Below, piece by piece: positions 7,308 to 47,407 of a stretch of 64,000 nt of DNA. The position numbers and the translations under genes were made by a program. A model generated the notes under the pieces. It had not been told where the DNA came from. It did no database searches and was given only the letters and a program-made list of their open reading frames with translations. Positions within the stretch are counted from its first letter, which is position 1. Each line of letters starts with the position of its first letter. The DNA is from Denitromonas ohlonensis (lineage in GTDB: Bacteria > Pseudomonadota > Gammaproteobacteria > Burkholderiales > Rhodocyclaceae): positions 124,001 to 188,000 of the forward strand of contig NZ_VMNI01000003.1 of NCBI RefSeq assembly GCF_007625205.1, read 5' to 3'.

Positions 7308-7877
7308 ATGTTCGACATCTTCCTGTCGCACGCGCATCAGGACGAAGCGCGGGCACGTAGTCTGTGCAAACGCCTCGAAAGCTGGGGCTTCTCGGTCTAC
7401 GTCGACTTCGGCGACGCCGCTCTCTCGCAACTGCCCGACCGCGCCCTGGCTGACCGTCTGGTCGGCCGCCTGCGCCAGTGCCGTCTGCTCGTCTTCGCCT
7501 TTTCCGAGGCCTCGGCCAACTCCCGCTGGATGCCCTGGGAGCTCGGTCTGGCGCATGGCGTGATCGGCCGCGCCGTGCTCTGGCCTTTCACCCAGCGCGC
7601 GCTGCGGGCCAAGGCGGTGCAAGAGTATCTGCACCTCTACGAAGCCCTGCAGCCGCGCACCGCACAGCACCGTCTCGACGCCCTCCTCGGTGAGGCCCGC
7701 GCTGCCGCCGTGCGCCCGGCCGACCTCCGCGCCATGCAGGATCTGGCCCAGATCACCGAAGCCAAGCGCCCCGAGTTCGGCAACCCCGAGGTCGCCACCG
7801 AGTTCATGGCCGCCGGCCCGATGAAGCTCTACCTCGCCTGGCTCGAATCGCTCTCCCGCGCCTGGCGGCCAAAGTGA
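7308..7877 (+). CDS. Stand-alone TIR-domain protein
   Basis: A 189-residue protein whose first ~130 residues form a TIR domain: MFDIFLSHAHQDEARARSL (box 1), WGFSVYVDFGDAALSQLPDR (BB-loop region), LLVFAFSEASANSRWMPWELGLAHG. Glu78 in WMPWELG matches the position of the catalytic glutamate of NAD-cleaving TIR domains. The remaining ~60 residues are helical with no recognised domain. ATG 7308 follows AAGGA. Bacterial TIR proteins work in anti-phage defence or as NADases and signalling enzymes. No ThsA, Argonaute, CRISPR or other defence partner is adjacent, so the role is open. Confidence 0.8.
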   Translation: MFDIFLSHAHQDEARARSLCKRLESWGFSVYVDFGDAALSQLPDRALADRLVGRLRQCRLLVFAFSEASANSRWMPWELGLAHGVIGRAVLWPFTQRALRAKAVQEYLHLYEALQPRTAQHRLDALLGEARAAAVRPADLRAMQDLAQITEAKRPEFGNPEVATEFMAAGPMKLYLAWLESLSRAWRPK

Positions 7878-37776: not shown

Positions 37777-40296
37777 ATGGTCCGCCTGTTTCTGCTTGTC
37801 ATCGCCCTGTCTGCCAGCTTCATCACCCCTATGGGCCGCCTCGCCCATGCCGCACCGGTGGTGCACGAGCAGGACATTCCCTACTTCGATTCCTGCGCGC
37901 GCGAGGGGCTGAACGCCTCGGAGTGCGCCGGCCGGCTGATCTGGTTCAAGGCCACGGCGGGCAACGATCGCTTCCACACCTATGTGTTTCAACAGCGGGT
38001 GGGCGTGCTGATCGACTGGTTCCGCGTGCTGCGCTCCGATGAGCGCGGCGAGCGCTTCCGCGCCTGGGGCGGCATTAATGACCCGGCCTGCTGTACGCCG
38101 GGCGAGCCCAACTGCCCGGCCAAATCACTGGAAGAAACCTATGGCCTGGACTGGTGCCCCGGCGACGAGGAATTGCTGAAGTATGTCGGCAAGGCCGGCT
38201 ACACCGATCCGGCCTGCGACTTTCACGACGCACCGCTGGCCGAGGTCGAGGTGCACGGCCCGACCGACCAGCGCCAGTCCGCCTGCGATCTGAAGTTCGG
38301 CACCTCGACCGGCATGCTCGGCATCCGCAAGTTTCCGAATCCGCGCTTCGACCGCGACAAGTGGGTCAAACTCAACGGCAGCGCCGGCACCTGGGAAGGC
38401 TACAACCGCAAGATTCCGGCCGCTGGCGGCTCGGATGAACCGGCCAAGAGCCGCCTGCTCGACGGCGCGGTCGAGCCGCCCTACCTGATCGGCACCGCCT
38501 GCGGCTCCTGCCATATTTCCTTCGACCCGCTCAACCCGCCGGCCGACCCGGCCCATCCCAAGTGGGAGAACATCAAGGGCCTGCTCGGCAACCAGTACTC
38601 GCGCATCTCCGAGATCATGGTGTCGGGCATGGCCAGCAACACGCTGGAGTGGCAGATGTTTGCCCACGCCCGGCCGGGCACCAGCGACACCTCGGCCATC
38701 CCCAACGACCAGGTGAACAACCCCGGCACCATGAACGCGCTGATCAACATCCCCCAGCGGCCGGTGTTCATGGGCGAAAAAGTGCTCAAGTGGCGCAAGG
38801 CCAACAGCTGCGAGGGCAAGGCCGCCGCCACCTGCTGGTGCGAGCCGGCTCGCGAGGGCAAGTGCTGGGAGAAGTCGCTGGCGGATGAGACCGTGCATCA
38901 CATCCTCAAGGGCGGCGAGGACTCGATTGGCGCGCTCGAAGCCATCCAGCGCGTGTATTTCAACATCGGTTCGTGCTCGGAGCAGTGCTGGGTCAATCAC
39001 CTCACCGACCTGCGCGTGGCCGACCCGCAGCAGCGCGGCTTTGGCCAGACGCCCTTCAACATCGGCCAGTGCCGGCGCGACTGCCCCAACTTCCGCGCGA
39101 TTGAAGACCGGCTGGGCAACATCCTCGACTTCTTCATGTCGGCCGAAGCGCGCAACACCGACCTGCGCGAAGCGCGCGAGACCGGCCTGCGCAAGGCCGA
39201 CCCCAGCGCCACCTACGCCACGCAGGACCTGATCGCCGATCTGGAAAAAGAGTTTGGCGAGGGCGCCGTGGCCCGTGGGCAACAGGTGTTTGCCACCACC
39301 TGCGCACGCTGCCACTCTAGCCAGCCCGAGGCAGCAGCCGGGCAGTTCGACGCACTGGACTTCTACAAGATGGACGAGAAGAGCGGCCTGCGCGCCGACT
39401 GGCTGGGCAATGACGCACCCACGCTGGTGTCCGAGGTCGGCACCTTCCGCTGCCGCGCCCTGCACAGCAACCACATGACCGGCAAGATCTGGGAAGAATA
39501 CGGCTCGGAAACCCTGCGCGCGCAAGCCGCCGACCCCAACCTGGCCGAGCCGGCCGATGGCGGGCGCAGCTACTACCGCAACATCTCACTGATCAACCTG
39601 TGGGCGCACGCCCCCTTTCTGCACAACAACGCGCTCGGCCCCGAGCTGTGCGGCAAGCCGGCCAACAAGGCCAACGCCTTCTACGCCATGCGCCCGCGCT
39701 ATGTCGACGGCAACACCCTGTCGTTGCTGCCGCCCGACCAGCAACCCGCCTGCTGGGAGTACGACCCCAGCGTCGAGGGCCGCTTCAAGCTCTACAAGGC
39801 GAGCATGGACGAGTTGCTCAACCCGGCCAAACGCATCCCCAAGGTCACACTGCTCAACGAGGATGTGACCCTGCGCGTCGGCCCGCGGCTGTGGGACGGC
39901 ACCGAGAAGGAGAAGCTGGTCGGCTTCTCGCTCACCATCCCGGCGGTCATCGACGGGCGCGGCGTCAATGCCGGCACGGTGGGCAACTTCCAGCACAAGA
40001 CCTTCGTGGTCGACCTGGTGCAGGCCAAGTTCAAGCCCAAGGAGGTTGAAGCGCGGCTGGTCAAGCAATGGGGGCCGGATGCCGGCAAGCGCGTGTTCAC
40101 CGACCTCAAGGCCATCACCGAGGAGGTCACCAGCCAACCCAACGGCCTGGTCGAGGCGCTCAAGAAGCGGCCCTATCTGGTCAAGCAGATCTACTCCTCC
40201 TGCTTTGCCGAGATCGAAAACGCCGGTCACCGCTTTGGCGAAGACCTCTCCGAGGCCGACAAGAAGGCCCTCACCGCCTTCCTGGCCACCCTGTAA
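37777..40296 (+). CDS. Large exported di-haem c-type cytochrome, unknown function
   Basis: An 839-residue protein with a Sec signal (MVRLFLLVIALSASFITPMGRLAHA). It has two covalent haem motifs, CGSCH (242-246) and CARCH (509-513), the latter starting a C-terminal domain that contains NISLINLWAHAPFLHNNALGPELC, as in RoxA-like and di-haem peroxidase-like proteins. Many additional Cys residues (CCTPGEPNC, CEGKAAATCWCEPAREGKCW, CSEQCW, CRRDC) suggest several disulfides, unusual for this superfamily. GGAGG precedes ATG 37777; the frame is open upstream but lacks an RBS. First gene of the five-gene + strand cluster. Confidence 0.82.
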   Translation: MVRLFLLVIALSASFITPMGRLAHAAPVVHEQDIPYFDSCAREGLNASECAGRLIWFKATAGNDRFHTYVFQQRVGVLIDWFRVLRSDERGERFRAWGGINDPACCTPGEPNCPAKSLEETYGLDWCPGDEELLKYVGKAGYTDPACDFHDAPLAEVEVHGPTDQRQSACDLKFGTSTGMLGIRKFPNPRFDRDKWVKLNGSAGTWEGYNRKIPAAGGSDEPAKSRLLDGAVEPPYLIGTACGSCHISFDPLNPPADPAHPKWENIKGLLGNQYSRISEIMVSGMASNTLEWQMFAHARPGTSDTSAIPNDQVNNPGTMNALINIPQRPVFMGEKVLKWRKANSCEGKAAATCWCEPAREGKCWEKSLADETVHHILKGGEDSIGALEAIQRVYFNIGSCSEQCWVNHLTDLRVADPQQRGFGQTPFNIGQCRRDCPNFRAIEDRLGNILDFFMSAEARNTDLREARETGLRKADPSATYATQDLIADLEKEFGEGAVARGQQVFATTCARCHSSQPEAAAGQFDALDFYKMDEKSGLRADWLGNDAPTLVSEVGTFRCRALHSNHMTGKIWEEYGSETLRAQAADPNLAEPADGGRSYYRNISLINLWAHAPFLHNNALGPELCGKPANKANAFYAMRPRYVDGNTLSLLPPDQQPACWEYDPSVEGRFKLYKASMDELLNPAKRIPKVTLLNEDVTLRVGPRLWDGTEKEKLVGFSLTIPAVIDGRGVNAGTVGNFQHKTFVVDLVQAKFKPKEVEARLVKQWGPDAGKRVFTDLKAITEEVTSQPNGLVEALKKRPYLVKQIYSSCFAEIENAGHRFGEDLSEADKKALTAFLATL

Positions 40297-40311
40297 GCGA
40301 GGAGGACCGCC

Positions 40312-41214
40312 ATGACAACGCACCGCACCGCCCGCCTCCTCGCCACCGCCGCCGCCCTCGCCCTGCTCGCCGGCTGCGGCGCCAAGGAAGACAAGACCCC
40401 GCCGGCGATCAGCTTCGCGCCCTACGGCGAAGCCCACAACGCCAAGCCTGATTTCGCCGAACTGGAGGCGCAGCACCCGCTGTCGGTCGAGGAGCTCTAC
40501 AAGATCACGCCCAAGAACCTCGCCCTGCTCGAGCAGGAACAGGTCGACCAGATCTACGCGCGCCTGTCCGCCGGGCCGATCCCCGAGGGCCCCTACGAGG
40601 GCGACCTGTTCTTCCCCAAAGGCGGCAGCGGCAAGCTGCGTCTGTCGGAGATTGCCGGCGGCGGACTCAAGGGCCTGCTGGTGAACGTGGCCGGCAAAAA
40701 GCTCGACCTGATGGGCGAGATCCTGTGGAAGGGCAAGGTCTTCTACCGCGACGAGCGCCTGCTGCGCAATCGCATCGAAGATCTCAAAACCCTCAAGGCC
40801 GTCGGCCTGATCGAAGAGAGCGACGCCAACCCGCTGCAGGAGATCACCGTCAACGGCAAGGACCAGTGGCTGCTCTTCCCCGCGCAGTTGTACTGCGGAC
40901 AGAGCCTGCTCGACGGCCGGCGCGAATCCATCATCATCGACTACGCCTTCACCGACCAGCTGCCCGGCTACCGGCGCATGCCCGACATGATGGCCGGCCG
41001 CGACGGCTTCGCCATCCGCGACGAGGTGCGCATGATCCGCCCCGGGCTGTATCTGGGCCGCGCCTATATCGACCGCGCCTTCGTGGTGAACTTCGTGCTC
41101 TACAACAAGGCCGTGGACGAAGCGGGCAAGGCCGGCTACCTCGCCACCGGCAAGACGGCGGAAGACTGCTGGACCGGCACCCAGCACCGGCAACTCGTCG
41201 CCGCGGCGAAATGA
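40312..41214 (+). CDS. Putative lipoprotein of the di-haem cytochrome cluster
   Basis: 300 residues. The signal peptide has lipobox ALALLAGC (Cys ~21), so it should be membrane-anchored in the periplasm. The mature part (residues 22-300) starts GAKEDKTPPAISFAPYGEAHNAKPDFAELEAQHPLSVEELYKITPKNLALLEQEQ and has no haem motif or recognised domain. An AGGAGG RBS precedes it. It lies 15 bp after the large cytochrome and 10 bp before the next one, so it is an operon partner, perhaps a docking or assembly factor (inference). Confidence 0.75.
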   Translation: MTTHRTARLLATAAALALLAGCGAKEDKTPPAISFAPYGEAHNAKPDFAELEAQHPLSVEELYKITPKNLALLEQEQVDQIYARLSAGPIPEGPYEGDLFFPKGGSGKLRLSEIAGGGLKGLLVNVAGKKLDLMGEILWKGKVFYRDERLLRNRIEDLKTLKAVGLIEESDANPLQEITVNGKDQWLLFPAQLYCGQSLLDGRRESIIIDYAFTDQLPGYRRMPDMMAGRDGFAIRDEVRMIRPGLYLGRAYIDRAFVVNFVLYNKAVDEAGKAGYLATGKTAEDCWTGTQHRQLVAAAK

Positions 41215-41224
41215 GGCCGCGCCC

Positions 41225-43171
41225 ATGCGCAGCGCGTGGCGATCCCTCGGCCTGCGCCTGCTGTGCGCGTTGTGGCTGGCGCCGTCGGTCGTTTGGGCCG
41301 AGGGCGCCTCGCTGTTTGCGCAGCTGATGACCCCGCCCGGCCAGCCCGCCGCACGCGTTACCTACCCCATCGAGGCGCTGGTCGCGCAACTGCGCGGGCA
41401 AGTCTCCGCCAACGGCGGCGAGGCCGGCGATGGCCTGCCGCTGGTGCTCATCCCGCTCGGCCGCTCGCTGCAACGCCACACTGCCGGCGCCGCGCACTAT
41501 TTTGAATCGCCCCGCGTGGTCGTCGCCGTCACCGGCGAGCCAGCCGCCACCGACCGCCCGCTGCTGCGCGACCGGCTCTACCTCGGCTACCACGAAGCCG
41601 CCGGCGTGCTCGAAGTCATCAGCTACAACGACAGCGCCGGCCGCTTCGAATTCGAGATCGTGGACGACTACCGCGAGGGCGCCACGCCCCGCCTGCGCGC
41701 CGGCAATCGCGGCCTGTGCCTGGCCTGCCATCAGAACGCCGCGCCGCTGTTCTCGCGTCAGACTTGGGACGAAACCAGCGGCAACGCGGCCATCGCCCGC
41801 CTGCTCAGCGCCGCCGGTCGCGACTTCTACGGCCTGCCCTGGCGTCACGGCGTCGACGTGGCCAACGCCATCGACGACGCCACCGACCGCGCCAACCTGC
41901 TGTCCATCGCGCAGACCGTCTGGCAACACGGCTGTGCCCATGCCGACCGCCCCACCGCCGTACGCTGCCGCGCCCGCCTGCTGTGGCGCACCCTGCTCGA
42001 CCGCCTCGGCAGCCCCGCCACCGGCCGACTCACCGACGACCCGGCGCTGGCACCGCTGGCCGCCCACTGGTCGCAACGCTGGCCCGACGGCCTGCCCGTG
42101 CCCAACCCCGACATCCCCAACCGCCAGCCCTTCGCCGCCACCTTGCCCTGGCAGGCGCTGCCGACCGAGCCCGCCGAGCTGCGCCGCGTCGCCGACGTGG
42201 CCGAACGCTTCGACCCGCTCGCCCTGCGCCCGCCGCTTGGCCACTGGCGTGTCAACGACGCCGCCACGCTGCCAAACCTCATCCACGCACTCGGCCAGTT
42301 CATTGCCGACGTCGACATCGCCGCGCTCGACCATGCGCTGCGCGGCGCAATCGGCATGCAGGCCGAAGCCCTCACCCTCGAGTGCAGCCGCCGCCATCGC
42401 CCCGAGCGCGAAGACCTCGACTGCCACCACGCCAGCGGCCTCGCCCTCAGCGCCCGGCGCAGCGCCGACCAACTCAAGATCGACCGCCTCGTGCTCGGCG
42501 CCGGCCCAGCCCGCAGCGCCCCGCCGTTTCGCCGTGGCGCCGACGGCCACTTTTACCCCGCCGGCACCGCCCCGCGCACCCCCGAGGGCGCAGCGCTTCG
42601 GCGCATCGAAGTGAGCCCGGGCGCGGTTCGCGTCCTGCTCACCGACGATCTCGCCGCCCTGCGCACCCATGTCGACCGCCTCGTCGCCGACACCCTCGCC
42701 GGCCGTAGCGACGCCCTCGACGACGCCCCGCTGCGCCGCGCCGCCGTGCTCTCACCGTTGCTGCCCATGCCCACCGAACGCCCCGCGCCGGTGCCGACAC
42801 TGGCCGAGCGCAGCAGCCCCGACGACCCCGATCTTGCGCCCTTCTACAAACACTGCGGCCTGTGCCACGACAGCACCGAAGCCTTCCCGCCCGGCTTTTT
42901 GCATGGCGACCGCGACACCATCCGCGCCGCCGTCGACCGCTGCGCCCCGCGCATGGCCCGCCGGCTGGCGATGTGGGCGTCGCCCGCCGGCACGCGTGAA
43001 AAAACGCCCATGCCGCCCCCGGCCTCGACCCAGGCCGGCGACATCCAGCACAGCGGCGATCTGGCCTCGATGCGCCAATGGCTTCACGGCCGGCTGCAAG
43101 CCAACGGCCACAACCCGGCACAACTGGCCGCCCGCCCCTACGCCGACCTGCCCGACTGTGCGGTCTTTTGA
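41225..43171 (+). CDS. Exported di-haem c-type cytochrome, unknown function
   Basis: 648 residues with a Sec signal (MRSAWRSLGLRLLCALWLAPSVVWA). Two haem-attachment motifs: CLACH (165-169) and CGLCH (544-548), nearly 380 residues apart. Between them is a long region without recognised domains (VLEVISYNDSAGRFEFEIVDDYREG before haem 1). The C-terminal domain around haem 2 (FYKHCGLCHDSTEAFPPGFLHGDRDTIRAAV...GTREKTPMPPPAS) resembles a small cytochrome c domain. Part of the contiguous cluster between the lipoprotein and the RoxA-like genes. Catalytic function unknown. Confidence 0.8.
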   Translation: MRSAWRSLGLRLLCALWLAPSVVWAEGASLFAQLMTPPGQPAARVTYPIEALVAQLRGQVSANGGEAGDGLPLVLIPLGRSLQRHTAGAAHYFESPRVVVAVTGEPAATDRPLLRDRLYLGYHEAAGVLEVISYNDSAGRFEFEIVDDYREGATPRLRAGNRGLCLACHQNAAPLFSRQTWDETSGNAAIARLLSAAGRDFYGLPWRHGVDVANAIDDATDRANLLSIAQTVWQHGCAHADRPTAVRCRARLLWRTLLDRLGSPATGRLTDDPALAPLAAHWSQRWPDGLPVPNPDIPNRQPFAATLPWQALPTEPAELRRVADVAERFDPLALRPPLGHWRVNDAATLPNLIHALGQFIADVDIAALDHALRGAIGMQAEALTLECSRRHRPEREDLDCHHASGLALSARRSADQLKIDRLVLGAGPARSAPPFRRGADGHFYPAGTAPRTPEGAALRRIEVSPGAVRVLLTDDLAALRTHVDRLVADTLAGRSDALDDAPLRRAAVLSPLLPMPTERPAPVPTLAERSSPDDPDLAPFYKHCGLCHDSTEAFPPGFLHGDRDTIRAAVDRCAPRMARRLAMWASPAGTREKTPMPPPASTQAGDIQHSGDLASMRQWLHGRLQANGHNPAQLAARPYADLPDCAVF

Positions 43172-43182
43172 GAGACGACGCG

Positions 43183-44691
43183 ATGGCCCATCCCGACTCC
43201 TCCCCCCCGCCCCGCCATCCCCACTGGCTCGGCCGCAGCCTGCTGTGGCTGCCCTGGGTGCTTGGCCTGGTCGGCGGCATCTACGCGCTCGGCCGCTTCA
43301 CCGCCGACATCCCGGTCGCCTATGCCGACGCGCCCAGCCACTTCAAGTACGGCTCCACCGGCGGCGAGCGCGAATCGGGCTTTCCGTACTGGATATGGAA
43401 GGTGCTGCCCAAGGTCTGCCCCGAGCACCTGCCCGGCGACGGCTACCGCTCGATCGGCTTCACCTACGAGCCGGGCAAGGACCTGCCCATCGGCGTATCG
43501 AAGCGCTTCAACCTCGGCATCGACCGCGTCTTCCTCAACTGCGCCGCCTGCCACGCCAGCACCGTGCGCGATGCGCCGGGCGCGGCACCGGCGGTATACC
43601 TCGGCATGCCGGCGCATCGGCTCGATCTCAAAGGCTTCGAGACCTTCTTCTTCAACTGCGCGGCCGGGCCGAAGTTTCGCAGCGAGTTCATCGTGCCCGA
43701 GATCGAAGCCGCCGCCGGCCGGCTCAGCCCGCTCGATCGCTATGTGGTCTACCCGGTGGCGATCAGCCTGATGCGCGAGCGCCTGCTCATGCTGCGCGAG
43801 CGTTTCGCCTTCGCCTTTGAGCAGCCCGACTGGGGGCCGGGCCGGGTGGACACCTTCAACTCGGCCAAGATCCTGTTCAACTTCCCCATGCACCAGCTGC
43901 CCAAAAAAGAGCTGCTCGGCGCCTCTGACTTCCCGTCCATCTGGCTGCAAGGCCCGCGCATGAAGCGCGACGACGGCGAGCGCATGGAGTTGCACTGGGA
44001 CGGCAACAACACCCGCACCGAAGAGCGCAACAAGAGCGCCGCCTTCGGCACCGGCACCACGCCGCCGACCATCGACCTGCGCGCCGTCGGCCGCATCGAG
44101 CAATGGTTGCTCGACCTCACCCCGCCGGTCTGGCCCTACGCCATCGACACCGAAAAAGCCGAGCGCGGCAAGACGCTCTACGCCGCCACCTGCGCCGCCT
44201 GCCACGGCGCCAGCGGGCGCGACTTTGCGGGCAAATACGTCGGCCATGTCACGCCGATTGCCGACATCGCCACCGACCGCGCCCGGCTCGACTCCTACAC
44301 CTACACCCTGGCGGTCAACCAGAGCACGCTCTACGCCGGCTACCCGCACCGCTTCCAGCATTTCCGCAAAACGCACGGCTACGCCAACATGCCGCTCGAC
44401 GGCCTCTGGCTGCGCGGGCCCTACCTGCACAACGGTTCGGTGCCCACCGTGCGCGACCTGCTCAACCCCGCGGCCGACCGCCCCACCCGCTTCTGGCGCG
44501 GTAACGACATCATCGACCGCGACCGCCTCGGCTTTGTCTCCGACGTGGCCGCCGAACCCGACCGGCAGTACTTCCCGTTCGACACCACCGAGCCCGGCAA
44601 CGGCAATGGCGGCCACGAAGGCGCGGCCTACGGCACCACGCTGGCGCCCGAGGACAAGGACGCCATCGTCGAATTCTTGAAGACGTTTTGA
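43183..44691 (+). CDS. RoxA-like di-haem c-type cytochrome, membrane-anchored
   Basis: 502 residues. The N-terminal anchor LLWLPWVLGLVGGIYALGRF (residues ~20-40) is probably uncleaved. Haem motifs are CAACH 120-124 and CAACH 337-341. RoxA-family landmarks: HFKYGSTGGERESGFPYWIWKVLPKVCPEHLPGDGY, PYLHNGSVPTVRDLL and FWRGNDIIDRDRLGFVSD. RoxA (rubber oxygenase A) is the biochemically characterised relative, ~680 residues; this shorter type has no known substrate. It starts 11 bp after the previous gene. It is a paralogue of 44968. Confidence 0.85.
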   Translation: MAHPDSSPPPRHPHWLGRSLLWLPWVLGLVGGIYALGRFTADIPVAYADAPSHFKYGSTGGERESGFPYWIWKVLPKVCPEHLPGDGYRSIGFTYEPGKDLPIGVSKRFNLGIDRVFLNCAACHASTVRDAPGAAPAVYLGMPAHRLDLKGFETFFFNCAAGPKFRSEFIVPEIEAAAGRLSPLDRYVVYPVAISLMRERLLMLRERFAFAFEQPDWGPGRVDTFNSAKILFNFPMHQLPKKELLGASDFPSIWLQGPRMKRDDGERMELHWDGNNTRTEERNKSAAFGTGTTPPTIDLRAVGRIEQWLLDLTPPVWPYAIDTEKAERGKTLYAATCAACHGASGRDFAGKYVGHVTPIADIATDRARLDSYTYTLAVNQSTLYAGYPHRFQHFRKTHGYANMPLDGLWLRGPYLHNGSVPTVRDLLNPAADRPTRFWRGNDIIDRDRLGFVSDVAAEPDRQYFPFDTTEPGNGNGGHEGAAYGTTLAPEDKDAIVEFLKTF

Positions 44692-44723
44692 GGGCCCGAG
44701 AATGAACCCCCTCCCGCAAAAAC

Positions 44724-44927
44724 GTAGCCCGGATGCAGCGCAGCGGAATCCGGGAACACCCGCCCGAGCGGGCACACCGCGTGTCAGCCAAGGGCACCGC
44801 GCGGTCCACAAGCCATTGGGACTCGGCACACTGCTCCCGGATTCCGCTGCGCTGCATCCGGGCTACGCCCTGGCCACCCCGCACCTCCCCGGCGCACCCC
44901 GTAGGGTGGGCGGCTTGCCCGCCCACC
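44724..44927. repeat. REP-like palindromes (GTAGCCCGGATGCAGCGCAGCGG family and GTAGGGTGGGCGG half)
   Basis: GTAGCCCGGATGCAGCGCAGCGGAATCCGGG (from 44724) is the complement of the block ending GGATTCCGCTGCGCTGCATCCGGGCTAC at 44876, a perfect ~30-bp inverted repeat enclosing 90 bp. At 44901-44927 a GTAGGGTGGGCGGC..GCCCGCCCACC hairpin follows, matching the family at 23694. The 276-bp interval between the two RoxA-like genes holds nothing else. Confidence 0.8.
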
Positions 44928-44967
44928 ACACCGCCGGCCCCGGCACACCCCCCGGAGGGCCCATCGC

Positions 44968-46437
44968 ATGAGCCTCGCCACCAACACCAAACCCCGCCGC
45001 ACCTGGCTCGCCGTCCTCGGCCTGGTCGTACTCTTCGGCATCGCCGCCGGCGTCTATGGCTGGGTCAAATTCTTCCGCGAGGTGCCGCAACCGGCGTGGA
45101 TCACTGACGACCCCGAGATGCGCTTCAAATACGGCTCGATCGGCGCCGAGGCCGACGCCGGCATTCCCTACTGGATCTTCTACGTGCTACCGCGCGTCTT
45201 CCCCGACAAACTCCCCGGCCCCGGCGGCTACGCCAGCTTTGGCGTGGCGTGGGAGCAAGGCATGGAGTTGCCGGTCGGCTTCACCAAGAAAACCATCGGC
45301 TTCGACCGCGTGGCCAACACCTGCGCCGTCTGCCACACCGCCACCTACCGCGAGTCGGTCGATTCCAACCCGGTGTTCGTGCCCACCGGCCCCAACCACA
45401 CACTCGATCTGGCCGCCTTTTTCCGCTTCCTCATCGACTGCGCCAAAGACCCGCGCTTTGACGCCGATGTGCTCATGCGCGAAATCAACCTCGTCACCGA
45501 TCTGGCCTGGGACGACGCCCTCATCTACCGCTACCTGCTCATTCCTATTACAAAGAAACGTCTCCTCGAACGCCAGACCCAGTTCGCCTGGCTGTACCAC
45601 CCCGCCTTCCCCGAGTGGGGGCGCGGCCGCGACGACTCGATGAACCTCACCAAGTACTTCATGATCGAGTGGCCGATGGACGACACCTTCGGCCCCACCG
45701 ACATGCCGTCCATCTGGAACCTCGGCAAATACCAGGCCGACAAGGGGCACCGCATGAACTTTGCCGGCGACAGCCACAACGCCTATTCGGTGGTCATCGA
45801 CTCCGCCCTCGGCCTGCTCGGCGCGCCGCCCAAGGACAATGCCGAATTCCTCAAACAGATCGACTGGATGCTGGACTACCTCAAGGCCGCCCGCGCCCCG
45901 GCCTACCCCTTCGCCATCGACACCGTCCTGGCCGAGCGCGGCAAAGCCGTTTTCGACGCCACCTGCGCCGGCTGCCACGCCAGCGAGCGCACCGGCACCG
46001 TCGTGCCCGTCGAAGAGGTCGGCACCAGCCGCGACCGCATGGAAACATGGAACGAAAAGGCCGCGTATGAAGCCAACAAGGTGGTCACCGAGATGGGCAT
46101 AAAACGCGAAGGCCTCGTCGAAGAGCCCCTGCGCGGCTATGTCGCCGCCTTCCTCGACGGCATCTGGCTACGCGCGCCCTACCTGCACAATGGCTCCGTA
46201 CCCACCCTGCGCGATCTGCTCGAGCCCCCCGCCAAGCGCCCGGTCACCTTCTGGCGCGGCTACAACCTGTACGACCGCGAGCGCGTCGGCTATGTCACCG
46301 CCGGCGAAGACGCGGAGTACTACGGCAGCCTGCACGACACCCGGCTCAAGGGCGGCGGGAATCAGGGGCACAACTACGGCACGGGCTTGCCCGACGAGCA
46401 CAAGGCGGCCTTGGTGGAGTATTTGAAGACGCTATGA
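44968..46437 (+). CDS. RoxA-like di-haem c-type cytochrome, membrane-anchored (paralogue)
   Basis: 489 residues. N-terminal anchor WLAVLGLVVLFGIAAGVYGWV. Haem motifs CAVCH 119-123 and CAGCH 333-337. Family landmarks: RFKYGSIGAEADAGIPYWIFYVLPRVFPDKLPGPGGY, PYLHNGSVPTLRDLLEPPAKRPVTFWRGYNLYDRERVGYV and LKGGGNQGHNYGTGLPDEHKAALVEYLKTL. It matches the protein at 43183 throughout, consistent with tandem duplication, with a REP palindrome pair between them. A shorter decayed copy of its 3' part lies at 48885-49245. Confidence 0.86.
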   Translation: MSLATNTKPRRTWLAVLGLVVLFGIAAGVYGWVKFFREVPQPAWITDDPEMRFKYGSIGAEADAGIPYWIFYVLPRVFPDKLPGPGGYASFGVAWEQGMELPVGFTKKTIGFDRVANTCAVCHTATYRESVDSNPVFVPTGPNHTLDLAAFFRFLIDCAKDPRFDADVLMREINLVTDLAWDDALIYRYLLIPITKKRLLERQTQFAWLYHPAFPEWGRGRDDSMNLTKYFMIEWPMDDTFGPTDMPSIWNLGKYQADKGHRMNFAGDSHNAYSVVIDSALGLLGAPPKDNAEFLKQIDWMLDYLKAARAPAYPFAIDTVLAERGKAVFDATCAGCHASERTGTVVPVEEVGTSRDRMETWNEKAAYEANKVVTEMGIKREGLVEEPLRGYVAAFLDGIWLRAPYLHNGSVPTLRDLLEPPAKRPVTFWRGYNLYDRERVGYVTAGEDAEYYGSLHDTRLKGGGNQGHNYGTGLPDEHKAALVEYLKTL

Positions 46438-46468: not shown

Positions 46469-47407
46469 TTACTTGCGCTTCCGCGGCGCCTTCGCGCGCG
46501 CCACCGGCTCGCCGAAGATTTCCGTTCTCGCCGCCTGTTGAATGGCCAGAATGGCGGGCCGTGTGAGCTTGCCTTCGGTCGTAATGGCATAAAGCTGCTC
46601 GATCACCTCATCGATCTGGCCCATCACCTCGACCCCGTATTGCCGGCACACGTAGTCATTGGTGGCGCTCGGAGCAACAAAGAAGCCGGCGCCGGCCTGG
46701 CCGAAGGCCTTGAGCAGGGCGCTGTCGTCGAACTCGGCCACCACTTGCGGGCGGATGCCATGGACGTCGAACCAGTCGCTCAGCGGACCATGAATTGCCG
46801 TGTCCTCGCCGGGCATCAGGAAAGGTGCATTGTCCAGACAGGCAGGGAAGGGATCGGGGTGGGCCTGGCGCACTGCCGACGTGGCCATCACCGACAAGGG
46901 ACTTTCACCGAGCAGGTGGTTGAAGCCGCGCACGCTCAGGCGCGCAGGCATGGGCCGATCGGCAATGACCAGATCGAGCCGGTGAATGGCCAGATCGGCG
47001 AGCAGCGTATCGAGGCGCCCCTCGCGGCAGGTGAGTTTGACCGGATCGTCGAGGCGCAGCGCGGGTGACACCAGGCGGTAAGCCACGGCCTTGGGCACCG
47101 AATCGGCAATGCCGATGCGCAGCGGCTGGGTATCGCGCGTGGAGGTGTCGCCGACGATGTCGAGGATTTCATCGCCCAGCGAAAAGATGGTTTCGGCGTG
47201 TTCGAGGATGCGCTTGCCCGTGGTCGACAAGATCAATCGACGTCCCTCGCGCTCAAACAGTTTGGCGCCCAGACTGGCTTCCAGCGCGGTGATCTGGCTG
47301 CTGATGGCATGCGGCGTGAGGTGGAGCGACTCGGCGGCGCGTGCAATGCTGCCGGCCCTGGCCACCGCCCAGAAGTAACGCAGGTGCTTGTAGTTGAGCG
47401 ATGCCAT
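46469..47407 (-). CDS. NhaR-like LysR-family regulator
   Basis: 312 residues. The HTH LNYKHLRYFWAVARAGSIARAAESLHLTPHAISSQITALEASLGAKLFEREGR matches NhaR-type LysR proteins, which respond to sodium or act on envelope/biofilm genes in enterobacteria. A basic tail (ARAKAPRKRK) ends the protein. It converges with the cytochrome cluster and diverges from the hibernation factor gene (47517), so it could regulate either; this is inference. Confidence 0.85.
   Translation of the reverse strand: MASLNYKHLRYFWAVARAGSIARAAESLHLTPHAISSQITALEASLGAKLFEREGRRLILSTTGKRILEHAETIFSLGDEILDIVGDTSTRDTQPLRIGIADSVPKAVAYRLVSPALRLDDPVKLTCREGRLDTLLADLAIHRLDLVIADRPMPARLSVRGFNHLLGESPLSVMATSAVRQAHPDPFPACLDNAPFLMPGEDTAIHGPLSDWFDVHGIRPQVVAEFDDSALLKAFGQAGAGFFVAPSATNDYVCRQYGVEVMGQIDEVIEQLYAITTEGKLTRPAILAIQQAARTEIFGEPVARAKAPRKRK

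Follow-up and report, generated by a model that had tools for sequence, protein, structure and literature searches.

We analysed a 64,000-nucleotide stretch of the Denitromonas ohlonensis genome (assembly GCF_007625205.1, contig NZ_VMNI01000003.1, positions 124,001 to 188,000 of the forward strand), hereafter the window. Between positions 37777 and 46437 it carries five genes, termed A to E, which form a putative periplasmic dihaem cytochrome system. A preliminary description had listed five co-directional genes, four encoding proteins with exactly two CxxCH motifs and one a lipoprotein, and open reading frame (ORF) coordinates and motif counts confirmed this layout (two motifs each in A, C, D and E, none in B):

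Gene A, 37777..40296, + strand: 839 residues, N-terminal signal-like segment, two CxxCH (38500-38514 and 39301-39315, + strand), 24 cysteines; remote RoxA-superfamily member.
Gene B, 40312..41214, + strand: lipoprotein of 300 residues, lipobox LAGC, calycin-like barrel model, without Pfam family.
Gene C, 41225..43171, + strand: 648 residues, two CxxCH (41717-41731 and 42854-42868), without Pfam family over cut-off.
Gene D, 43183..44691, + strand: 502 residues, hydrophobic N-terminal helix, RoxA superfamily, two CxxCH (43540-43554 and 44191-44205).
Gene E, 44968..46437, + strand: 489 residues, hydrophobic N-terminal helix, RoxA superfamily, two CxxCH (45322-45336 and 45964-45978).
Inverted repeat of repetitive extragenic palindromic (REP) type in the D-E gap, 44723..44867, no strand: 36-nt arms at 44723-44758 and 44832-44867, 97% complementary.

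The intergenic gaps from A-B to D-E measure 15, 10, 11 and 276 bp. The repeat in the last gap had also been noted before; it is called REP-type by its form alone and is probably incidental to the unit. The start of A was taken at 37777, because the longer ORF from 37627 would place 50 residues before the signal-like segment. For D, the ATG at 43183 was used rather than 43078; the Pfam and NCBIfam scores of D were obtained on the 537-residue ORF version. According to hydropathy, A, B and C open with a signal-like segment, ending in a lipobox in B; the N-terminus of D and E forms a longer hydrophobic helix, which is found in 56/56 D and 49/49 E homologues. A promoter and terminator scan yielded one weak promoter match, on the minus strand, and five terminator-like sites versus 7.3 expected.

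To collect relatives of A, named genome contigs were scanned with an alignment of 11 A sequences, and the best 80 of 164 loci, those whose A is nearest to that of the window, were kept (L numbers denote loci and G numbers genomes). In 55 of these 80 loci, the genes occur in the order A-B-C-D-E on one strand, bearing out the conserved synteny that had been proposed as support for a common system. The other 25 comprise 14 loci with ABC, four with ABCD, three with AB, two with A only and two with ABC plus a second divergent A-like gene; 21 of them stop at a contig edge, 0-813 bp past the last match, while four (L118, L120, L121 and L139) lack D and E though the stretch continues for more than 5 kb. 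The two CxxCH motifs are retained by all complete homologues of A (78/78), C (66/66) and E (49/49) and by 55/56 of those of D; the B homologues (72/72) all lack the motif. As this pattern is kept across homologues and accompanies the conserved gene order, it is not due to chance, and A to E form a genuine unit that is conserved in many bacteria of soil and sludge. An assembly of chance neighbours without common function has virtually no probability: homologues of A and C do separate in a few places (L059, L063, L064), but all five genes stand in order in most loci, and 10 of 200 genomes sampled from the order, belonging to eight families, contain A, B, C and D together.

The nearest relatives of A in the scan belong to Zoogloeaceae bacterium G21618-S1 (95%), a proteobacterial metagenome-assembled genome (91%) and Denitromonas iodatirespirans (88%). 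The full unit is present in Thauera, Aromatoleum and Zoogloea, A-B-C in Nitrosospira, and relatives of A, D and E in Rhizobium; in the 80-locus scan, the core was found in Thiobacillus, Nitrosospira and Sulfuriferula, which are autotrophs. Raw tallies for the 200 genomes of the order (E 0.001) were 15 for A, 14 for C, 27 for D and 11 for B. Close A proteins (identity of at least 62%) occurred in 12 of these genomes, and the same 12 carry C, 11 carry B, and 11 carry D at an identity of at least 60%. The remaining two C matches lie beside a divergent A (G003) and in a doubtful 67-residue frame (G004); the further D matches were weaker (40% in G099, others partial). The preliminary description had held that A and C occurring widely without RoxA-like genes would speak against a common system; among the 200 genomes, close homologues show no such spread, whereas A-like proteins of the divergent kind are also found without D and E. 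The distribution is patchy, since the 12 close-A genomes span 10 families while the five other genomes marked as belonging to the window's own family have no close A. In the phylum sample, A was found in 5/398, C in 2/396 and B in 4/396 genomes, the Denitromonas genome itself included each time. A mirror-tree test over 45 loci with five complete genes gave Spearman correlations of pairwise identity between 0.22 and 0.73, weakest for C (A-C 0.25, C-D 0.22). These values lend moderate support to joint inheritance and are a point against C evolving in step. In Pseudomonas fluorescens PS862 and PS833 (L077, L083), A is 75-76% identical to that of the window, compared to 63% in Aromatoleum, which suggests horizontal transfer.

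Two of the proteins had been assigned to the RoxA-like family, and for D and E this assignment stood. Both exceeded the gathering score of 26.7 of PF21419 (RoxA-like_Cyt-c; D 54.3, E 61.5 bits) and the 150-bit cut-off of NF040606 (CytoC_perox; D 169.4, E 159.8), and the best PDB profile match of both was RoxA 4b2n (E-values of 2.3e-16 and 3.4e-15, respectively). The NCBIfam equivalogs of RoxA and RoxB, with cut-offs of 1000 and 900 bits, were not reached (46.4/49.5 for D, 56/75.8 for E), and both proteins scored far below the RoxC cut-off of 900 (D 68.5, E 79.9). By sequence, D and E are RoxA-superfamily proteins, but neither RoxA nor RoxB.

The residue register of D and E relative to RoxA was taken from the 4b2n alignments. 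In RoxA, H195 is the proximal ligand, F301 and F317 flank the bound O2, W302 lies between the haems and H394/H641 are positioned at the second haem (PMC6311187, PMC6797691, PMC4496055). The equivalents of H195, F301, F317, W302 and H394+H641 are H124, H271, F288, W272 and H341+H478 in D, and H123, N264, L281, a variable residue (F, Y, W or L) at 265 and H337+H468 in E. All D sequences (57/57 core, 3/3 divergent) have H271 and W272, and F288 is Phe in 56/57 core sequences. H341/H478 are kept in 56/57 core sequences, with one gap, and in the three divergent D. In E, 50/50 core sequences carry N264 and L281, and the two rhizobial E have His and Ile, respectively, at these positions; H337/H468 are conserved in 50/50 core and both divergent sequences. 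Both proteins contain the MauG motif PYLHNGSVP, whose His is retained in 56/57 core D (H416) and 50/50 core E (H407). RoxA variants at F317, F317L among them, have drastically reduced or no activity (PMC6797691). Because E carries Leu at this position, a dioxygenase activity of the RoxA type is improbable for it. At the position of F301, D carries an invariant His, and this polar distal residue favours peroxide or hydroperoxide chemistry, or a different route of O2 activation; the P. aeruginosa relatives PA2077 and PA2078 have Gln as polar distal residue there (PMC4496055).

We give very little chance to an extracellular, RoxA-type enzyme that cleaves rubber or some other isoprenoid polymer to obtain carbon. 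The PF21419 match, the MauG motif, the C-terminal two-His positions and the equivalents of F317 and W302 in D are what such an enzyme would have; yet the RoxA/B/C equivalog scores of 46-80 bits compare to cut-offs of 900-1000, F301 is replaced by His in D and F317 by Leu in E, both proteins look membrane-tethered, and the core occurs in the autotrophic genera named above. It is likewise unlikely, if distinctly less so, that D and E are periplasmic peroxidases which serve detoxification, using electrons of the quinol pool or of cytochrome c for the reduction of H2O2 or organic hydroperoxides. The conserved His of D at the F301 position is a potential distal acid-base residue that is missing in RoxA (PMC6797691), NF040606, whose cut-off D and E exceed, is named for a di-heme-cytochrome C peroxidase, and a redoxin-family gene lies just downstream in 6/80 loci (Pfam on one representative). 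However, the family name does not stand for a tested function, Pfam listed no CcpA/MauG model up to an E-value of 1, and three RoxA-type paralogues together with C and a barrel lipoprotein exceed the needs of detoxification; the lipase and GMC oxidoreductase partners described below would also be left unexplained.

The third RoxA-type paralogue is A, so that the earlier count of two fell short. A and D were aligned by hhalign with a probability of 96% (E-value 2.3e-9) over the C-terminal haem and the MauG-type motif. A scored 10.5 bits with PF21419 and 26.3 bits with NF040606, below both cut-offs, and RoxA 4b2n was a weak match, second in its PDB list (E-value 0.018). The C-terminal two-His positions of A (H513/H818) are invariant in 79/79 core and 10/10 divergent sequences, and the MauG-type motif takes the variant form APF(L/M)HNNA, with H616 conserved in 79/79 core sequences. 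The match to D, the weak 4b2n match and the invariant C-terminal His ligand positions place A in the RoxA superfamily as a putative remote member, giving three RoxA-like paralogues in the unit. The other protein described earlier as matching no recognised enzyme, C, has no informative Pfam or PDB match.

No Pfam model scored over its cut-off for the window C. Among 26 C members, only generic haem-motif models recurred (PF09699 in 17, best E-value 0.0006; PF13442 in 14, best 0.0011), and neither NF040606 nor PF21419 matched C. We considered C as a further RoxA paralogue and did not adopt this, since hhalign against A and D gave probabilities of 4-6% and a fold search with the predicted model of C (predicted local distance difference test score, pLDDT, 82.0; predicted template modelling score 0.82) returned no PDB match at E 0.001. 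A VIA-align comparison reached Z scores of at most 6.5, with the middle barrel alone; this may be a common arrangement, and we make no claim to a new fold. In 67/67 sequences and in both divergent C, a Met (M596) is kept near the second haem, making it a candidate second ligand of the C-terminal haem. As no other His or Met is invariant in the C alignment apart from the haem motifs and the initiator, the first haem of C may have an open site. Second copies of C away from the unit occur in two genomes that also carry the unit, L063 (G153:C260) and L064 (G016:C3); the copy in L064 is followed by a protein of 1190 residues with one CxxCH.

Membrane-tethered cytochromes, an exported one and a lipoprotein would also be compatible with a pure electron-transfer chain, a cytochrome wire between inner and outer membrane. 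We give this explanation little chance, as the enzyme-type pocket residues of D are strictly conserved, each protein has two haems only, and no multihaem partner occurs within the conserved unit.

The lipoprotein B had been proposed to act as an anchor. Hydrophobic N-terminal helices are, however, present in D and E themselves, and the predicted structure of B is a calycin-like barrel. A role as a mere anchor is therefore unlikely for B, and that of a ligand carrier is likelier. The model of B matched 4mve best (Z 9.9, root-mean-square deviation 3.2, 139 residues aligned), followed by two annelid haemoglobin linker chains and a designed barrel (Z 5.2-5.7) and then by lipocalins, nitrophorins and fatty-acid-binding proteins (Z 4-4.7). 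We take 4mve to belong to a GXWXG/DUF4334-type family; from the titles listed in a search of the open-access PubMed Central (PMC) literature on 4mve and DUF4334, nothing was judged related. A Pfam search on 24 B members gave nothing beyond chance (best E-value 0.031, to unrelated families), and NF040606 did not match B.

In all B sequences compared (73/73), W139, W186, W287, C195 and C286 are invariant. They would fit a maturation system of the MauG/MbnH kind, in which one or more dihaem proteins oxidise Trp, Tyr or Cys residues in B (or C) and the modified B is the functional product. MbnH pairs with MbnP, and the unit resembles such systems in joining dihaem enzymes to a conserved non-haem partner gene; D and E share the MauG motif, and all 11 genomes of the order sample with B fall among the 12 with close A. 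Nevertheless, we regard this explanation as quite improbable. The unit differs in having five genes, larger proteins and no family-level match (TIGR04039, the MbnH family, gave 12.7 bits for E versus a cut-off of 362.85 and was not listed for the others), short B-like proteins are found elsewhere without an A-like neighbour, the Trp residues of B could be structural, and the lipase and GMC partners would again be unexplained.

These partners come from related clusters. We fetched 13 divergent A-like loci and opened 3 of 21 plasmid records with an A match. The A-like gene adjoins a GMC oxidoreductase gene in 9 of the 13 loci; in two others (L062, L162) its neighbour is a C-like gene. On pRL11 of Rhizobium johnstonii 3841, the order is NADH:flavin oxidoreductase, D-like protein (45%), a protein of 143 residues, E-like protein (39%), A-like protein (26%), GMC oxidoreductase and patatin-like phospholipase, the last scoring 43.6 bits with PF01734 (cut-off 27.7). 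Sinorhizobium fredii shares this layout with a patatin under the cut-off (21.4 bits), and in Mesorhizobium the A-like gene is followed by a GMC-patatin fusion whose patatin part is just under it (26.6 bits). In L164, a patatin over the cut-off (30.7 bits) is divergent to A. Among the 80 loci, 15 carry a patatin-like protein of about 900 residues ahead of A on the same strand, the match ending 57-243 bp before the A start (26.3 bits versus the cut-off of 27.7). As this upstream patatin and the rhizobial one gave no mutual BLAST match at 1e-4, the sequences suggest that the patatin association arose more than once. Further lipid-type neighbours are a class 3 lipase (Lipase_3) between C and D in L110, alpha/beta hydrolases in L171 (over cut-off, together with a D-like protein and an animal-type haem peroxidase), L060 (under) and L161 (over), and, in L165, a D/E-like protein with an adjacent GMC-hydrolase fusion. 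The earlier proposal of a multi-cytochrome system was supported, and the substrate, which it had left unnamed, can be narrowed via the lipid-type partners of related clusters, none of which occurs in the window.

Other neighbours were recorded as well. The NhaR-type LysR gene next to E (46469-47407) was considered as regulator of the unit and rejected: it is convergent and adjoins E as a close homologue (81%) only in L069 of the 80 loci, and the 95% identical locus L067 has no homologue of it within 4 kb after E. Some of the Zoogloea-type loci have a different LysR gene upstream of A. A defence island was considered because of the caspase, TIR or patatin genes near some loci and was rejected, as A to E match no PADLOC model. 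Genes for caspase-domain, TIR-domain and weakly matching papain-type proteins adjoin the unit (L102:19786-21579, L095:4723-5889, and downstream in L104, L110, L113 and L129), and at 7308-7877 of the window a protein starting with MFDIFLSHAHQDEARARSLCKRLES appears TIR-like by eye. An alpha-amylase family gene is located between B and C in all of L098, L102, L104, L112, L115 and L118. Directly upstream of A, two genomes of one genus encode an extra dihaem protein (L051:230-1672, L053:4687-6117), which in L051 matches PF06537 (DHOR; E 1e-84). Two divergent A-C pairs, each from another genome, are followed by a protein of about 255 residues with one CxxCH (L062:6176-6949, L162:10929-11693). A family of about 430 residues, often starting MTPQ(S/D)SF, recurs near A-B units or short B-like proteins (L139:20829-22444, L163:11570-13318, L057:3508-4806, L118, L182:8687-14746, L183:6627-8132); the one member scanned had no Pfam match, and a protein that is DyP-like by eye is sometimes nearby. 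A short B-like protein lies near the A-GMC pair in L163 and L139, that of L163 matching the window B at E 1.9e-17.

Our leading, still tentative interpretation is that the unit carries out a membrane-side periplasmic oxidation of a hydrophobic unsaturated substrate, most likely a lipid (a fatty acyl chain or an isoprenoid). The lipid-type reading is preferred because the characterised relatives use unsaturated hydrophobic substrates, namely polyisoprene (PMC6311187) and, via PA2077/PA2078, oleate (PMC4496055), and because lipid-type partners recur in related clusters. The sequences show the conservation of the unit, the family membership of D and E (remotely also A), the conserved ligand positions, the hydrophobic N-terminal helices and the lipase and GMC partners in those clusters; the lipid substrate, the carrier role of B, the order of steps and the path and donor of electrons we infer. 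B would bind the substrate or product and present it at the membrane. D and E would act one after the other as inner-membrane-tethered tandem enzymes; in each, the N-terminal haem would be the site of catalysis and the C-terminal two-His haem would pass on electrons. A, as a cysteine-rich exported RoxA-superfamily relative, and C, as a new dihaem protein, would complete the core and add further steps.

The working model is OdsA/OdsB of P. aeruginosa (PA2077/PA2078, FadCcp; oleate-diol synthase), by which oleate is converted to a hydroperoxide and further to a diol. PA2077 makes the fatty-acid hydroperoxide, whose overproduction is toxic and which is then converted by PA2078 (PMC4496055). As with D and E, these are tandem RoxA-superfamily dihaem paralogues of one operon acting on an unsaturated chain, and D shares with them the F317 equivalent, the C-terminal two-His haem and the MauG motif (PMC4496055). 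In contrast, the F301 position is Gln in OdsA/OdsB but His in D and Asn in E (PMC4496055), OdsA/OdsB are secreted (PMC11941309) whereas D and E are apparently membrane-tethered, and the parts of both papers considered here mention no A, B or C partner (PMC4496055, PMC11941309). RoxA and RoxB (4b2n) share with the unit PF21419, two CxxCH, H394/H641-type ligands, the PYxHNGSVP motif and, in D, the W302 and F317 equivalents. The unit differs from them by low equivalog scores, the change of F301 to His or Asn and of F317 to Leu in E, the N-terminal membrane helices and the partners A, B and C. RoxC proteins are, like D and E, membrane-attached Rox relatives, and are of unknown function; the authors suggested a possible oxidation of unsaturated cell-wall fatty acids by these proteins (PMC10837239). 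They differ in that most are predicted lipoproteins and many have a third haem, and D and E fall far under the RoxC cut-off.

Several observations weigh against an oxidation of lipids. The O2-stabilising F317 position is Leu in E (Ile in rhizobia), and L or I occupies the F288 position in all three divergent D. The haem pocket of A (W405, H408, F427) is tentative, and H616 is replaced by Leu in 6/10 divergent A. The comparison with OdsA/OdsB is based on a published residue table. The model of B is of medium confidence (pLDDT 79.7), and calycins have further ligands, haem among them. In G562 and G268, short B-like proteins are encoded in stretches that, as far as they were fetched, contain no A-like match. 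As to the partners, neither GMC nor patatin homologues were found in 63/80 loci, homologues of the GMC, patatin and Lipase_3 proteins are all missing from the 64-kb window, and two of the 13 divergent A-like loci (L059, L061) have neither GMC nor C. The 15 patatin-bearing loci, nine of which are labelled Thiobacillus or Hydrogenophilales, look like one clade and may represent one event, and some loci carry an alpha-amylase, caspase, TIR or papain-type gene instead.

Since Thiobacillus, Nitrosospira and Sulfuriferula are autotrophs, finding the core in these genera points to a function in the cell's own lipids and away from one in carbon supply. A more far-reaching and rather doubtful possibility is a widespread, undescribed lipid-oxygenation system, in which the three RoxA-superfamily enzymes, C as a new dihaem enzyme family and B as a calycin-like carrier would turn unsaturated lipids released from the membrane into oxidised lipids (bacterial oxylipins), even in autotrophs such as Thiobacillus and, with A-B-C alone, Nitrosospira, and would serve signalling or membrane remodelling, not the use of rubber or fat.

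The preliminary description had judged the unit little described, and we found no account of it among the papers listed by searches of the open-access PMC literature: neither the five-gene architecture nor the remote A branch, the C family or the B family was described in them, and NF040606 was named in no paper searched. In 14 control genomes, NF040606 gave a match in one and none over the cut-off. The enzymes belong to a known superfamily and are hence not categorically new. According to the sources considered, rubber cleavage and oleate diol synthesis are the two activities known for the RoxA superfamily, and the RoxC group is acknowledged to be an orphan. In the unit, three divergent members of this superfamily, one of them remote, are joined by a candidate lipid carrier and by a dihaem family for which no Pfam model is informative, and the occurrence of the unit in cultured genera makes the role of non-rubber Rox-like proteins directly testable.

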